From: Candidatus Hydrothermus pacificus | Lineage (GTDB): Bacteria > Hydrothermota > Hydrothermia > Hydrothermales > Hydrothermaceae | NCBI GenBank assembly: GCA_002011615.1 | Contig: MTOH01000005.1 | Span: 1-47,197, forward strand | Length of the DNA: 47,197 nt | Direction: 5' to 3' | Shown: positions 16,854-22,678 of the stretch, piece after piece | How positions within the stretch are numbered: the stretch's first letter is position 1 | Layout: each line of letters opens with the position of its first letter | Made by a program: the position numbers and the translations under genes | Notes under the pieces: model-generated | The model's input: the letters and a program-made list of their open reading frames with translations, nothing else | Told to the model about the DNA's origin: nothing | Databases searched by the model: none

Positions 16854-17939
16854 ATGGACGAATTTATAGAAAAAAAAGAAAAAGACTTGTATTTACCCTA
16901 TTTTATCTCCCTTGCTGAATTTGCCGCAGGTATAGCTCATGAGATAAATAACCCTTTATCCTCCCTTATGGCAGCAATAGAATACATCTCTTCTAACAAA
17001 GATGCTGAGATTTTTTCAGATGAAATAAACCTGATAAAAAACTCTGCTAAAAGAATATCCAGTATAATAAAAGATGTAATTTTGTTTGCAGATACCCAGA
17101 AAGACTCTATAAAAGAAATCTTTGAAGTAAAAGAAGCGGTTAAATCAATTGTGGGAATAGTAAAGAATCATTACAGGTCAGAGGGTATTGAGGTTTCTGA
17201 AAAATACGACACGGATAAACTGTTTATTATGGGGAGGAGAGGGGTGTTTCAAAATTCGATTTTTAACCTGCTTAAAAACAGCTATGATGCCATAAAAAGT
17301 GTAAAGACTAAAGGACAGATTCAAATAAAAGTTTTAAATAAAACAGACTATGTTTTGATAGAAATTCATGATGATGGTAGAGGTATACCAGAAGAATATA
17401 AGGACAAGATTTTATTGCCCTTTTTTACCACCAAATCACATACACAGGGTATAGGCTTTGGTCTGAGTTTTGTAAAAAAAGCTGTGGATGAATTTGGAGG
17501 GAACATACACTTTATAAGTAAAGAAGGTGTGGGAACATCTTTCTTCGTAGAAATACCTGTGTATAATGTCAAGGAAATAGAAGAGAATGAAAATCAGGCA
17601 ATTATCTTTACAAAAAGAAATGAGATAGAGTTTCAGATAAAGAATGTTATGAGTAAACTTGGCTGGAATGTTCAAAGAATTGAGGATTTAAATCGGATGA
17701 TTCACACATGCTCTATATGTGAGGCGAATAGATGTCTGGGATTTGTTGATATGAAAAATATTGAAATCCCGTATCAGGAAGTTATAGAAAGAATAGAAAG
17801 GAGTAATGATGCAATGATAAGAAGACTTATATTTATTACAGATTTACTTGAGCCAGACTGGCTAAGGATGTTGAAATATAAGGGCATAAGATTTATTTTA
17901 GAGCCTTTTACTGTCGGGGAAATTTTGCAGGTGATTTAA
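16854..17939 (+). CDS. Cytosolic sensor histidine kinase with degenerate C-terminal receiver
   Basis: A 361-residue kinase with no sensor or membrane segment. The DHp domain has an intact H-box, AAGIAHEINNPLSSL, with phospho-acceptor His29. The HATPase domain (about 120-235) has the N-box FNLLKNSYDAI, G1 DDGRGIPEEY, F-box LPFFTTK and G2 GIGFGLSFVKK. Residues about 245-361 look like a receiver fold in layout (IIFTKRN..., LGFVDMKN, LIFITD, KGIRFILEPF), but the usual acidic pair is missing and the KP motif reads EP, so it is probably a pseudo-receiver. It is followed 13 nt later by a second kinase-like gene with a good Shine-Dalgarno sequence, so both should be made together. The signal is unknown. 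Confidence 0.85.
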   Translation: MDEFIEKKEKDLYLPYFISLAEFAAGIAHEINNPLSSLMAAIEYISSNKDAEIFSDEINLIKNSAKRISSIIKDVILFADTQKDSIKEIFEVKEAVKSIVGIVKNHYRSEGIEVSEKYDTDKLFIMGRRGVFQNSIFNLLKNSYDAIKSVKTKGQIQIKVLNKTDYVLIEIHDDGRGIPEEYKDKILLPFFTTKSHTQGIGFGLSFVKKAVDEFGGNIHFISKEGVGTSFFVEIPVYNVKEIEENENQAIIFTKRNEIEFQIKNVMSKLGWNVQRIEDLNRMIHTCSICEANRCLGFVDMKNIEIPYQEVIERIERSNDAMIRRLIFITDLLEPDWLRMLKYKGIRFILEPFTVGEILQVI

Positions 17940-17952
17940 AAGGAGATTTTTT

Positions 17953-19437
17953 ATGAGAAAGATACTTATAGTGGATGATGATGAGAATATAAGAGTTATA
18001 TTTAAAAAAGTGCTTGAAAACGCGGGTTACGATGTTGATACCGCTTCTAATGGATTGGTTGCTCTTGAGATTCTTGAAAACAAACAATTTGACATCTACC
18101 TTCTTGATTTAAAAATGCCTGAAATGGATGGGCTCACTCTTCTTGAGGAAATAAAAAAACGAGGGCATGAGGGTATTCCAATAATTTTGACTGCCTATGG
18201 AGATAAAGAAAGTGCAATAACCGCTTTGAAGCTGGGAGCCTATGACTTTGTTGAAAAGCCTGTGAGTATAAACGATATGAGGTTCGCAATCCAGAGAGCT
18301 CTTGAAAAAAAGATACTTCTTGAAGAGAATGTAAAATTAAAGGAAGTTGAAAAACTGCATAAAGCAGTGGTTGAAATGCTTAAATCCGATAGTGAGGAAG
18401 AGTTTTTAAAAAATTTTCCCAGAATATTAATTGATTCGCTGAATTTTGAAAGTGCAATGCTATATATATATAGCCCGGAAGAAAAAACCTTTTTTTATCC
18501 AAAATTCATTCCAGAGATTGAGAATTATATACAGGATGCCAGAAAAAGTGAATTTTCTATCAAAGATACCTACATGTTACATAAAATCTCGCCTTCAGAA
18601 GAGATAGAAGGAATTATGATTGTTAAATCCTTTTTCCCCTTTATAGACAGGGAAATAGAGACTTTTAAATTGATATGCAAACAGGGAGAGATATTGTGGA
18701 AAGAACTTGTTTCAAAAAGGAAACTTGAAGAAGCTCTTGAAAAATTAAAGGCCTATCATCTTACAGCATTAAGAACCGGCAGGGTCTCAGTACTCGGTGA
18801 AATAAGCAATACTCTTATAAAGGAGATAGAAAATCCTTTAAACAATGTGGAAATGGGGTTATCTTACTTTTTTAACCGTGAAGACCTTGTAGATTTAAAA
18901 GAAACTAAGGGGTTGCAGAAACAATGGGAAGAACTGAAAAAAGTTTTTAATAATTTTAAAGAAATAATGAGTTCTATTAAACCGACCAGAAAGAAAGTTA
19001 AACTTGGCGAAGTTATAAATATGTGTTATGAAATACTTTTACCCCAGTTTGTGGAGAGCAGGGTCTCTTTCTGGCGAGGAGGTGTTGAGGATGTTGAGAT
19101 AGACGGTTATCCTGGATTAATTGAACAGATATTTATAAACCTTTTTATCAACTCTCTTGACATAATGAAAGAAGGAGGCAGGATAGAAGTCAGGATTGAC
19201 GAAGAAGAAGATTTGGTGAGAGTGGAGGTTCGGGATACAGGTCCTGGGATTCCTGCAGATATTAAAAACAGGATATTTGAGCCTTTTTTCACAACAAAGA
19301 AAGAAGGAACAGGTATGGGACTCACACTTGTTAAGCATGGTGTTGAAATGCACGGAGGTAAGATTGATCTGGAAAGTGAAGAAGGTGTGGGAACCGCTTT
19401 TTACATAACTCTTCCAAAAAGATGGGAAGGCTATTAG
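17953..19437 (+). CDS. Receiver/GAF-like/kinase protein lacking the phospho-accepting histidine
   Basis: A 494-residue protein starting with a complete receiver domain (1-120): Asp9/Asp10, phospho-acceptor Asp52 in LLDLKMPEMDG, Thr80 and Lys102 in EKPV. A GAF-like region spans about 130-270. The next segment, LGEISNTLIKEIENPLNNV, aligns position by position with the H-box of the upstream kinase (AAGIAHEINNPLSSL), but the His is Lys290. The HATPase domain is intact: N-box INLFINSLDIM, DTGPGIPADI, FEPFFTTK, GTGMGLTLVK. It may bind ATP and phosphorylate a partner in trans, or act as a pseudo-kinase; that is inference. The AAAAGGAG ribosome-binding site is strong. It overlaps the sugar transferase gene by 16 nt. 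Confidence 0.88.
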   Translation: MRKILIVDDDENIRVIFKKVLENAGYDVDTASNGLVALEILENKQFDIYLLDLKMPEMDGLTLLEEIKKRGHEGIPIILTAYGDKESAITALKLGAYDFVEKPVSINDMRFAIQRALEKKILLEENVKLKEVEKLHKAVVEMLKSDSEEEFLKNFPRILIDSLNFESAMLYIYSPEEKTFFYPKFIPEIENYIQDARKSEFSIKDTYMLHKISPSEEIEGIMIVKSFFPFIDREIETFKLICKQGEILWKELVSKRKLEEALEKLKAYHLTALRTGRVSVLGEISNTLIKEIENPLNNVEMGLSYFFNREDLVDLKETKGLQKQWEELKKVFNNFKEIMSSIKPTRKKVKLGEVINMCYEILLPQFVESRVSFWRGGVEDVEIDGYPGLIEQIFINLFINSLDIMKEGGRIEVRIDEEEDLVRVEVRDTGPGIPADIKNRIFEPFFTTKKEGTGMGLTLVKHGVEMHGGKIDLESEEGVGTAFYITLPKRWEGY

Positions 19438-20021
19438 AAATAATAATAACGATTTTCATTCTAATTCTCACCTTTCCGCTATGGATAGCAATTGCTTTAT
19501 TGATAAAAATGGAAAACAGAGGACCGGTATTTTTTGTTCAGGAGAGAGTGGGTAGAAATCAGAAGATTTTTAAAATTTATAAATTCAGAACAATGTATAA
19601 AGACCAGGATAAGAGACTTGCGAAATATTTGAATGATAATCACATTGCGAAAAAAGAATGGGAAGATTACAGGAAATTGAAAACCTTTGACCCGAGGGTT
19701 ACAAAGGTGGGAAAATTTTTAAGAAAATTCAGTCTGGATGAAATTCCGCAAATTTTGAATGTATTAAAGGGTGATATGAGTCTTGTGGGTCCCAGACCCT
19801 ATTTAAAGGAGGAGTTTCATAATATACCTGAAAGCGCTTATGATATTTTTAGTGTAAGGCCTGGTATTACAGGACCATGGCAAACATGTGGTAGAAATAA
19901 AATCCCATTTTATCAGAGAATAAGAATTGAAAAAGAATATGCAAAATCAAAAAATCTTATAAAAGATTTGGGATATCTTTTCAAAACAGTAAACTCTATC
20001 ATTAACGGAGAGGGTATTTGA
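19422..20021 (+). CDS. Bacterial sugar transferase (polyprenyl-phosphate phosphoglycosyl transferase)
   Basis: A 199-residue enzyme of the WcaJ/WbaP C-terminal family (monotopic phosphoglycosyl transferases), which starts polysaccharide repeat-unit synthesis by moving a sugar-1-phosphate from a nucleotide sugar to undecaprenyl phosphate. Seen are an N-terminal re-entrant membrane helix (about 5-30), RGPVFFVQERVGRNQKIFKIYKFRTM, the RKFSLDEIPQILNVLKGDMSLVGPRP block containing the catalytic Asp-Glu pair, and RPGITGPWQTCGRN. It is the minimal catalytic form without the large N-terminal region of WcaJ. The ATG lies inside the end of the kinase gene, suggesting coupled translation and perhaps regulation with that signalling pair. 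Confidence 0.9.
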   Translation: MGRLLEIIITIFILILTFPLWIAIALLIKMENRGPVFFVQERVGRNQKIFKIYKFRTMYKDQDKRLAKYLNDNHIAKKEWEDYRKLKTFDPRVTKVGKFLRKFSLDEIPQILNVLKGDMSLVGPRPYLKEEFHNIPESAYDIFSVRPGITGPWQTCGRNKIPFYQRIRIEKEYAKSKNLIKDLGYLFKTVNSIINGEGI

Positions 20022-20032
20022 AAGGAGGAAAA

Positions 20033-22678
20033 ATGACTGCAAGGACAAGGAGAAAGAAATATGTATATGCCTTTGGCAAAGGCAAAGCAGAAGGCAGTGC
20101 AAAGATGAAAAATCTGTTAGGTGGAAAGGGTGCAAATCTACATGAAATGACCCGACTTGGTATAAATGTGCCTCTAGGTTTTACAATAACTACAGAGGTT
20201 TGCACCTATTACTACCAGAAAAGGAGATTTCCCGGTGATTTGAAGTTACAGGTTAAGAAAGGAATAAGGTTTCTTGAGAAAGCAACAGGTAAAAGATTTG
20301 GAGACCCATCAAATCCGTTGCTTGTTTCTGTGAGAAGTGGTGCAAGAGTATCAATGCCTGGTATGATGGATACTGTTCTTAATCTTGGAATCAATGATGA
20401 AGTGGCTGAAGGACTTGCAAACCTTACAGGTAACAGAAGATTTTCTCTTGATGCCTACAGGAGATTTATCCAGATGTTTGGTAATGTGGTTAAAAATGTT
20501 CCTCATGAAAGTTTTGAGGCTGTGCTTGAAGAGTTGAAAGAGGAGAAAGGGGTTCATCTTGACACAGAGCTGGACGAAAAAGACCTTGAAGAGTTAATAA
20601 AAAGGTATCGAAAGGTCTATAAAAAGTATACCGATGAAGAATTTCCACAAAGCCCTGAGGAGCAGTTGTGGATGGCTATAAAAGCAGTTTTTGAATCCTG
20701 GAACAATAAGAGAGCAATAGAATATAGAAAATTACATAACATACCTGATACATGGGGCACTGCATGTAATGTTCAGGTCATGGTTTTTGGCAATATGGGT
20801 AATGACAGTGCTACAGGTGTTGCGTTCAGCAGGAATCCTTCTAACGGTGAAAAGGAAATCTTTGGAGAATATCTTTTAAATGCACAGGGTGAAGATGTTG
20901 TTGCGGGTATCAGGACTCCTAAGCCCATTTCTGAATTAAGAAAAGAAATGCCAAAAGCTTATGATGAACTTGTGAATATATTTAGGAAGCTTGAGAAACA
21001 CTATAAAGAGATGCAGGATATGGAATTTACAATAGAACGCGGGAAAGTTTATATGCTTCAAACAAGAGTTGGCAAGAGAACTCCCAGAGCGAAAGTTAAG
21101 ATAGCTGTTGATATGGTAAGGGAAAGACTTATAAAAAAGGAAGAGGCCATAAAAAGGGTTTCCCCTGAGGATATAGACCATTTACTCCACCCTCAAATTC
21201 CTGATTCCTTTGAGGGAGAAGCTCTTGCAAAAGGTCTTCCTGCATCGCCTGGTGCAGCAAAAGGTAAAGTTGTTTTTGATGCTGACAGAGCAGCTGAACT
21301 CGGCTCTCAGGGTGAAAGTGTTATACTTGTGAGAGTTGAAACCTCGCCGGATGATATTCACGGTATGGCAAGGTCAAAAGGGATACTTACTGCGAGAGGT
21401 GGAATGACCTCTCATGCAGCGGTTGTTGCAAGAGGGATGGGGATTCCCTGTGTTGTGGGATGTGAGTCTTTGAACATAAATTATTCTGGAGAACTTTTTG
21501 AAATTAATGGTAAAGTGGTGAAGGAAGGTGACTTAATTACCATAGATGGAACCACAGGAAAGGTTTATTTAGGCGATGTTCCTGTGGAAGCCCCTGGGAT
21601 TTTTCCTGAACTCAATGAACTTTTAAAATTTGCTGATAAAATAAGAAAACTTGGTGTCAGGACAAATGCAGATACACCGAGGGATGCCAGAAAGGCTCTT
21701 GAGTTTGGGGCAGAAGGCATAGGATTATGCCGAACAGAACATATGTTCTTTGAGGGGGAAAGAATATATGCAATGCAGGAAATGATTCTCGCTGAAAATG
21801 AGGAAGAACGAAAAAAAGCTTTAAACAAACTTCTTCCTTTTCAAAGAAAAGATTTTTATGAGATATTCAAAGTAATGGACGGGCATCCGGTTACCATAAG
21901 GACACTCGACCCTCCTCTTCATGAATTTTTACCAAAAGAAGAAGAGAGCATAAAGGAACTTGCTGAAAGAACAGGTAAAAGTATTGAGGAGGTGAAAAAG
22001 AAAATAGAGGCACTCTCAGAACTCAATCCTATGCTCGGACACAGGGGATGCAGACTCGGGATAACATATCCTGAAATCACTGAAATGCAGGCAAAGGCAA
22101 TATTTGAAGCAGCGGTCAAAGCAACAAAGGAAGGTGTTAAAGCAATCCCTGAAATTATGATTCCCCTTGTTGGCATAGATAAAGAGCTGAAGATGCAGAA
22201 AGAGGTTGTTGACAGGGTTGCAAAAGAAATTATGGAAAAAGAGGGTATAAAAATAAAGTACAGTGTAGGAACGATGATAGAAATCCCCCGTGCCTGTATA
22301 GTTGCTCACAGAATAGCAAAGATTGCTTCTTTCTTCTCATTTGGAACCAATGATTTAACCCAGACAACCTTTGGTTTTTCAAGAGATGACATTGGCAAAT
22401 TTTTACATGATTATATAGATAGGAGTATTTTATCAAAGGACCCCTTTGCTGTTCTCGACCAGGAAGGTGTTGGGGAACTCATGAAGACAGGTATACAGAA
22501 GGGAAGAAAAGCAAATCCCAAGTTAAAAATAGGCATATGTGGTGAACATGGTGGAGAACCCGCATCTGTGGATTTTTGCCACCGGATAGGCCTTGACTAT
22601 GTGAGTTGTTCTCCCTACAGGGTTCCCATAGCGAGGCTTGCTGCTGCCCATGCCGCATTAGAGGAAAAAAGAAAATGA
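20033..22678 (+). CDS. ppdK: Pyruvate, phosphate dikinase
   Basis: An 881-residue enzyme that interconverts pyruvate + ATP + Pi with PEP + AMP + PPi. The nucleotide-binding domain opens with YVYAFGKGKAEG and LLGGKGANLHEMTRLG. The swivelling phosphohistidine domain carries GGMTSHAAVVARGMGIPCV with His461 as phospho-acceptor. The C-terminal TIM barrel has GLCRTEHMFFEGER, NPMLGHRGCRLG, FSFGTNDLTQTTFGFSRDD and the catalytic Cys in GICGEHGGEP. I chose the ATG at 20033 with AAAGGAGG in front; an in-frame TTG five codons earlier lies in the ribosome-binding site region and is unlikely. The enzyme is typical of anaerobes using PPi-linked glycolysis or gluconeogenesis. It overlaps the next gene by 4 nt. 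Confidence 0.97.
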   Translation: MTARTRRKKYVYAFGKGKAEGSAKMKNLLGGKGANLHEMTRLGINVPLGFTITTEVCTYYYQKRRFPGDLKLQVKKGIRFLEKATGKRFGDPSNPLLVSVRSGARVSMPGMMDTVLNLGINDEVAEGLANLTGNRRFSLDAYRRFIQMFGNVVKNVPHESFEAVLEELKEEKGVHLDTELDEKDLEELIKRYRKVYKKYTDEEFPQSPEEQLWMAIKAVFESWNNKRAIEYRKLHNIPDTWGTACNVQVMVFGNMGNDSATGVAFSRNPSNGEKEIFGEYLLNAQGEDVVAGIRTPKPISELRKEMPKAYDELVNIFRKLEKHYKEMQDMEFTIERGKVYMLQTRVGKRTPRAKVKIAVDMVRERLIKKEEAIKRVSPEDIDHLLHPQIPDSFEGEALAKGLPASPGAAKGKVVFDADRAAELGSQGESVILVRVETSPDDIHGMARSKGILTARGGMTSHAAVVARGMGIPCVVGCESLNINYSGELFEINGKVVKEGDLITIDGTTGKVYLGDVPVEAPGIFPELNELLKFADKIRKLGVRTNADTPRDARKALEFGAEGIGLCRTEHMFFEGERIYAMQEMILAENEEERKKALNKLLPFQRKDFYEIFKVMDGHPVTIRTLDPPLHEFLPKEEESIKELAERTGKSIEEVKKKIEALSELNPMLGHRGCRLGITYPEITEMQAKAIFEAAVKATKEGVKAIPEIMIPLVGIDKELKMQKEVVDRVAKEIMEKEGIKIKYSVGTMIEIPRACIVAHRIAKIASFFSFGTNDLTQTTFGFSRDDIGKFLHDYIDRSILSKDPFAVLDQEGVGELMKTGIQKGRKANPKLKIGICGEHGGEPASVDFCHRIGLDYVSCSPYRVPIARLAAAHAALEEKRK

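Follow-up and report, generated by a model that had tools for sequence, protein, structure and literature searches.

The window, i.e., the whole stretch of 47,197 nucleotides analysed from Candidatus Hydrothermus pacificus, carries two adjacent kinase genes, both on the plus strand and separated by a gap of 13 bases. The first (K1; 16854..17939), delimited by ORF, Pfam and AlphaFold analysis, would encode a soluble histidine kinase of 361 aa with a DHp domain bearing His29, an intact HATPase domain and a C-terminal pseudo-receiver, and the second (K2; 17953..19437), read from ORF, Pfam and alignment, would encode 494 aa that comprise a receiver (REC), a linker, a DHp domain without His and an intact HATPase domain, the layout of a putative Rec-controlled pseudo-histidine kinase. 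As the original prediction had it, the end of K2 overlaps with the ORF of a bacterial sugar transferase (19422..20021, plus strand), the overlap measuring 16 bases, downstream of which lies a pyruvate phosphate dikinase gene (window 20018-22678); given that this ORF overlaps the end of the sugar transferase by four bases, the transcription unit may run on. Upstream of K1, on the opposite strand, there is a tRNA-Cys, and the codon immediately 5' of the K1 ATG is TAA, which leaves K1 without a readable N-terminal sensor in that frame. Neither sigma-70-like promoters nor terminators rose above the level of shuffles here.

The output of the kinase pair had been proposed to affect the sugar transferase. 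This idea was dropped, given that its adjacency to K2 is not conserved in the four related genomes of the same order (G001, G002, G003 and G004, the window genome being G000): the gene belongs to a separate cluster in G001-G003 and, in G004, lies on a different contig from K2. It is probably a bystander.

The kinase core of K1 was recognised above the Pfam cut-offs in both of its parts (HisKA, 49.8 bits; HATPase_c, 72.9 bits), and all its boxes are complete, that is, the H-box H29-E30, the N box, G1 (DDGRG), F (LPFFTTK) and G2 (GIGFGL), with the codon of the phospho-acceptor His29 at 16938..16940 of the plus strand (computed as 16854+28x3). The intact H-box that had been claimed for K1 is thus present, and K1 is apparently a working histidine kinase.

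The C-terminal domain of K1 (residues about 248-361; 17595..17936, plus strand, from the alignment and the AlphaFold model) presents a different picture, with no Response_reg match by Pfam in K1. In an alignment of 15 sequences, the metal-binding DD pair is replaced by T253-K254 and the conserved Lys by E350, so that E350-P351-F352 stands where K-P-F is expected, as first described. The claim that the acidic residues had been lost holds for the DD pair but not for the acceptor, as D299 occupies the phospho-acceptor Asp column, which is invariant in 15/15 rows, and T329 fills the Thr column. An initial three-sequence alignment had suggested that the acceptor Asp was also gone, a reading rejected once the deeper alignment and the model placed D299 there. 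The AlphaFold model (mean pLDDT of 79) shows the last ~115 residues as a (beta-alpha)5 receiver, in which beta-3 ends with D299 and beta-4 with T329. A pseudo-receiver being a receiver fold that lacks at least one of the five catalytic residues, the K1 C-terminus belongs in this class by its predicted fold, with DD and K lost and D and T kept; such partial loss is common, and the D is retained by about 65% of pseudo-receivers (PMC12632262). The K1 receiver therefore looks catalytically broken, and its role, by analogy with ShkA or CikA, is most likely one of regulation or of ligand binding.

The closest parallel for this arrangement is offered by ShkA of Caulobacter, which has a c-di-GMP-binding pseudo-receiver and, like K1, passes directly from the kinase core into it; the full-length protein (6qrj) is the second structure match of K1, over 359 aligned columns, and GGDEF proteins are encoded in the window genome. 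The ShkA family has the architecture DHp-CA-pseudo-REC-REC, with a working C-terminal receiver, whereas K1 ends after its pseudo-receiver and has no second, working one.

In K2, the defect falls elsewhere. The receiver domain (17953..18306, plus strand, Pfam and alignment; Response_reg, 107.6 bits) has Asp52, Thr80 and Lys102 intact, and the HATPase domain (19105..19422, plus strand, Pfam and alignment; HATPase_c, 97.3 bits) keeps its N, G1, F and G2 boxes in 3/3 orthologues, so that both domains are as sound as had been stated. HisKA found no Pfam match in K2 at E<=0.1, nor was any Pfam domain found in the linker, and the structure model of the DHp domain and the linker is of low confidence. 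The H-box reads LIKEIENPL, with Lys290 (codon 18820..18822, plus strand, by alignment) at the canonical His position, which confirms the most striking element of the original prediction and means that the canonical His cannot be used by K2. K2 thus shares with Rec-controlled histidine kinases of the LvrB type the order REC-DHp-CA and, in its N-terminal receiver, the residues DD, D, T and K, but not the H-box His and the autokinase capability of that class, since K290, or N and K in the orthologues, takes its place; by its residues it fits the definition of a pseudo-histidine kinase, a kinase homologue without the phospho-acceptor His.

This loss goes beyond chance. HisKA domains without His made up 0.9% in a published survey (PMC12632262), and of all the HisKA-type cores read across the window genome and its relatives those of the three K2 proteins alone are without the H-box His, K2 being the sole such case in the window genome itself. 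Full-length REC-x-HK proteins of the same layout in other phyla keep the H-box His in all cases, and two apparent His-less REC-kinases in Bacteroidetes proved to be misalignments.

The two K2 orthologues are found in G003 (G003:C1:8234-9754, 506 aa) and G004 (G004:C7:21381-22898, 505 aa), with 37% and 35% identity, respectively, to K2 over the full length, and form with it a supported clade (99/98). A search of the phylum recovered K2 clearly over its full length in 3/147 genomes, two further weak matches at about 1e-46 being other kinases and not K2, and a wider contig scan gave no K2 orthologue among the matches listed, which included generic receivers. The identity of the two relatives to the window protein reaches 46-50% in the REC and HATPase domains, against 19-26% in the linker and 29-33% in the DHp domain, and the active-site residues of the receiver and the ATP domain are invariant across the three proteins. 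The orthologous H-boxes read LFNAIKNPI and FFKNIISPL, which makes the critical site K/N/K: His was retained in none of the three, as the prediction needed, and the Lys which had been expected to be fixed is not.

If the H-box site is free to vary, the acceptor may have moved. Across the three K2 proteins a single His is invariant, His269 (codon 18757..18759, plus strand, by alignment), which lies 21 residues N-terminal of K290 and inside an HLx4TG motif that is specific to the K2 clade and does not appear in the other kinases aligned, so that phosphorylation of His269 in place of the canonical residue can be envisaged. This displacement would amount to about 30 angstroms along the helix, which would presumably demand an unusual geometry of the ATP domain, and the invariance is read from three sequences in a region modelled at low confidence; we regard a displaced acceptor as very improbable.

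One other way to account for a His-less core is that K2 is a dedicated response-regulator phosphatase, set by the phosphorylation of Asp52 and by the nucleotide in its ATP domain. An acid-x-x-amide pattern after the His is characteristic of phosphatase-competent HisKA proteins, and the window K2 retains it as E291xxN294. The His itself is not strictly needed for the phosphatase activity of HisKA proteins (PMC12632262). Both the acidic neighbour and the later amide vary among the three K2 proteins, though, the orthologues having AxxN and NxxS even where an NtrC-type regulator, the natural substrate, is encoded next to them, and this function is rather unlikely.

K1 takes a different form in the relatives. 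Its orthologues in G003 and G004 (99/95 support), 620 and 601 aa long, have the domain order PAS-HisKA-HATPase-REC, and their receivers are recognised by Pfam and have DD, D, T and K intact. The K1 receiver shares only 19% identity with these receivers, and the K1 branch has a length of 1.45, against about 0.3 for the orthologues. Such divergence, together with the two related genomes that lack the genes, would fit partial decay, in which drift erodes the K1 receiver and the K2 DHp domain and the pair does little. On the other hand, the ORFs of K1 and K2 are both intact, K1 keeps every kinase box, and the REC and HATPase active sites are preserved in 3/3 K2 proteins although none has the H-box His, which makes decay unlikely. 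A doubtful but conceivable alternative is a receiver swap where K1 adjoins K2: the K1 receiver, intact in the orthologues, would have lost catalysis and that of K2 would have taken over, with K2 reading Asp phosphorylation while forming no phospho-His itself, or forming one at the displaced site His269.

The adjacency of K1 and K2 is exclusive to the window genome, as the K1 orthologue and K2 occupy separate loci in G003 and G004, both of which carry the two genes. There, an NtrC-type sigma-54 activator gene directly follows K2, with stop and start overlapping. These facts bear on the proposal of an obligate heterodimer, in which the two DHp domains would pair, the ATP domain of K2 would phosphorylate His29 of K1 in trans and the K2 receiver would take the phosphate. 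This proposal has one kinase core modulate a second through contact of their DHp domains, as in the HrrS-ChrS and RetS-GacS kinase heterodimers. The adjacency in the window genome and the conservation of the K2 ATP-binding boxes despite the loss of its own acceptor would suit such a dimer, and kinase heterodimers do exist, native HrrS and ChrS having heterodimerised in two-hybrid assays (PMC9491836). A heterodimer would be possible without being needed, given that the ATP site of K1 looks complete, which removes the supposed dependence of His29 on the partner's ATP domain and makes phosphorylation in trans unnecessary. The separation of the pair genes, which the original prediction had itself counted as refuting, is seen in both relatives that carry them, and the notion of an obligate pair across the group fails with it, since the partner of K2 there is the NtrC-type regulator, while the K1 orthologue comes with a sensor and an intact receiver of its own. 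An obligate heterodimer is accordingly quite improbable.

What survives of the predicted association is the co-occurrence of the genes, though not their adjacency outside the window genome: K1 and K2 are both present in G000, G003 and G004 and, at the profile thresholds used, both absent from G001 and G002, five genomes of the order in all. The co-absence could come from general gene loss, given that the G001 and G002 genomes have 1.8 Mb, against 2.06-2.3 Mb in those with both genes. In G001, whose genes next to this site have about 95% identity to those of G003, nothing of the K2-NtrC pair lies between rsmD and the Cache gene, a clean absence that leaves the shared intergenic sequence in place, and the pair is found at the same place, between the same neighbours, in G004, which points to loss; G001 also lacks the K1 orthologue at the corresponding locus.

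The best solved-structure match of K2 is LvrB (E 8e-21; low TM-score), the kinase core of which is controlled by Rec phosphorylation (PMC13269768). The LvrA-LvrB system resembles the pair in its adjacent genes, in a second protein of REC-DHp-CA type without a DNA-binding domain and in an upstream kinase that is the likely Asp donor. It differs in that LvrB is a real kinase with a working His161 and a shorter linker than that of K2, and in that K1 lacks both the PAS domain and the working receiver of LvrA; the NCBIfam LvrB cut-off was reached by neither K1 nor K2. In the defect, the resemblance of K2 is to DivL of Caulobacter, which has Tyr for the H-box His, keeps the DHp-CA fold and plays a role in a two-component network, its core, without the His, having been turned to the sensing of DivK~P, although its ATP binding is weak (PMC4211667) whereas K2 has unbroken ATP motifs and an intact N-terminal receiver.

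Our main reading, held at a probability of about one half, is that K1 and K2 make up a pair of histidine kinase and Rec-controlled pseudo-kinase, in which Asp52 of K2 would be phosphorylated in trans and K2 would act through binding or allostery. K1, soluble and without an N-terminal sensor, would autophosphorylate His29 using its own ATP site, gated by its pseudo-receiver in a manner similar to that of ShkA (PMC7010744), and the phosphoryl group would then pass in trans to Asp52 of K2, as from LvrA to LvrB (PMC5863495, PMC13269768). Given that the acceptor His is lost throughout the K2 clade, phosphorylation of Asp52 has no canonical autokinase to activate; instead, it may rearrange the ATP-bound K2 dimer, which would control another two-component protein by binding or allostery in the manner of DivL (PMC4211667), phosphorylating nothing. 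K2 would then probably be a phosphorylation-controlled switch rather than a kinase. The sequence supports the components rather than the reactions, and the steps modelled on LvrA-LvrB, DivL and ShkA are analogies. K1 is a plausible phosphodonor for K2 on the strength of their adjacency, which is confined to the window genome, and of the presence pattern in five genomes.

Pseudo-receivers have been described before, and so have His-less kinases. K2 retains both its input receiver and its ATP site, the acceptor alone being lost. The relatives offer a contrast, with K2 paired to an NtrC-type regulator and K1, at another locus, carrying a sensor and a receiver of its own. Together these provide a natural test of what an ATP domain is for once autophosphorylation has been lost. 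With three K2 sequences, from five genomes of the order, it is a case for specialists.

No orthologue of the K2-linked NtrC-type activator was found in the window genome, nor was a DNA-binding partner of K2 identified there. An orphan NtrC-type regulator (G000:C6:41853-43160; L189:5806-7176) lies in this genome at the site where G001-G003 carry the sugar transferase; its candidacy as the missing partner was discarded, as its grouping with the NtrC proteins of the relatives was rejected (AU p 0.017).

Finally, other genes flank the loci of the relatives. The K1 orthologues of both relatives lie divergent from a gene for a Peptidase_C25 protein that bears a Por secretion-tail domain (L035:7276-11337 in G004; in G003, pieces at the ends of two contigs); close matches were limited to these two genomes, with none in G001 or G002 and weak ones in the window genome. 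Upstream of K2 in G003 and G004, and divergent from it, is a gene whose product has a Cache domain and a coiled-coil tail but no kinase domain (G003:C1:7220-8185, L031; G004:C7:20366-21331, L032; in G001, G001:C1:31508-32473), a possible sensor partner that every one of the five genomes of the order carries.
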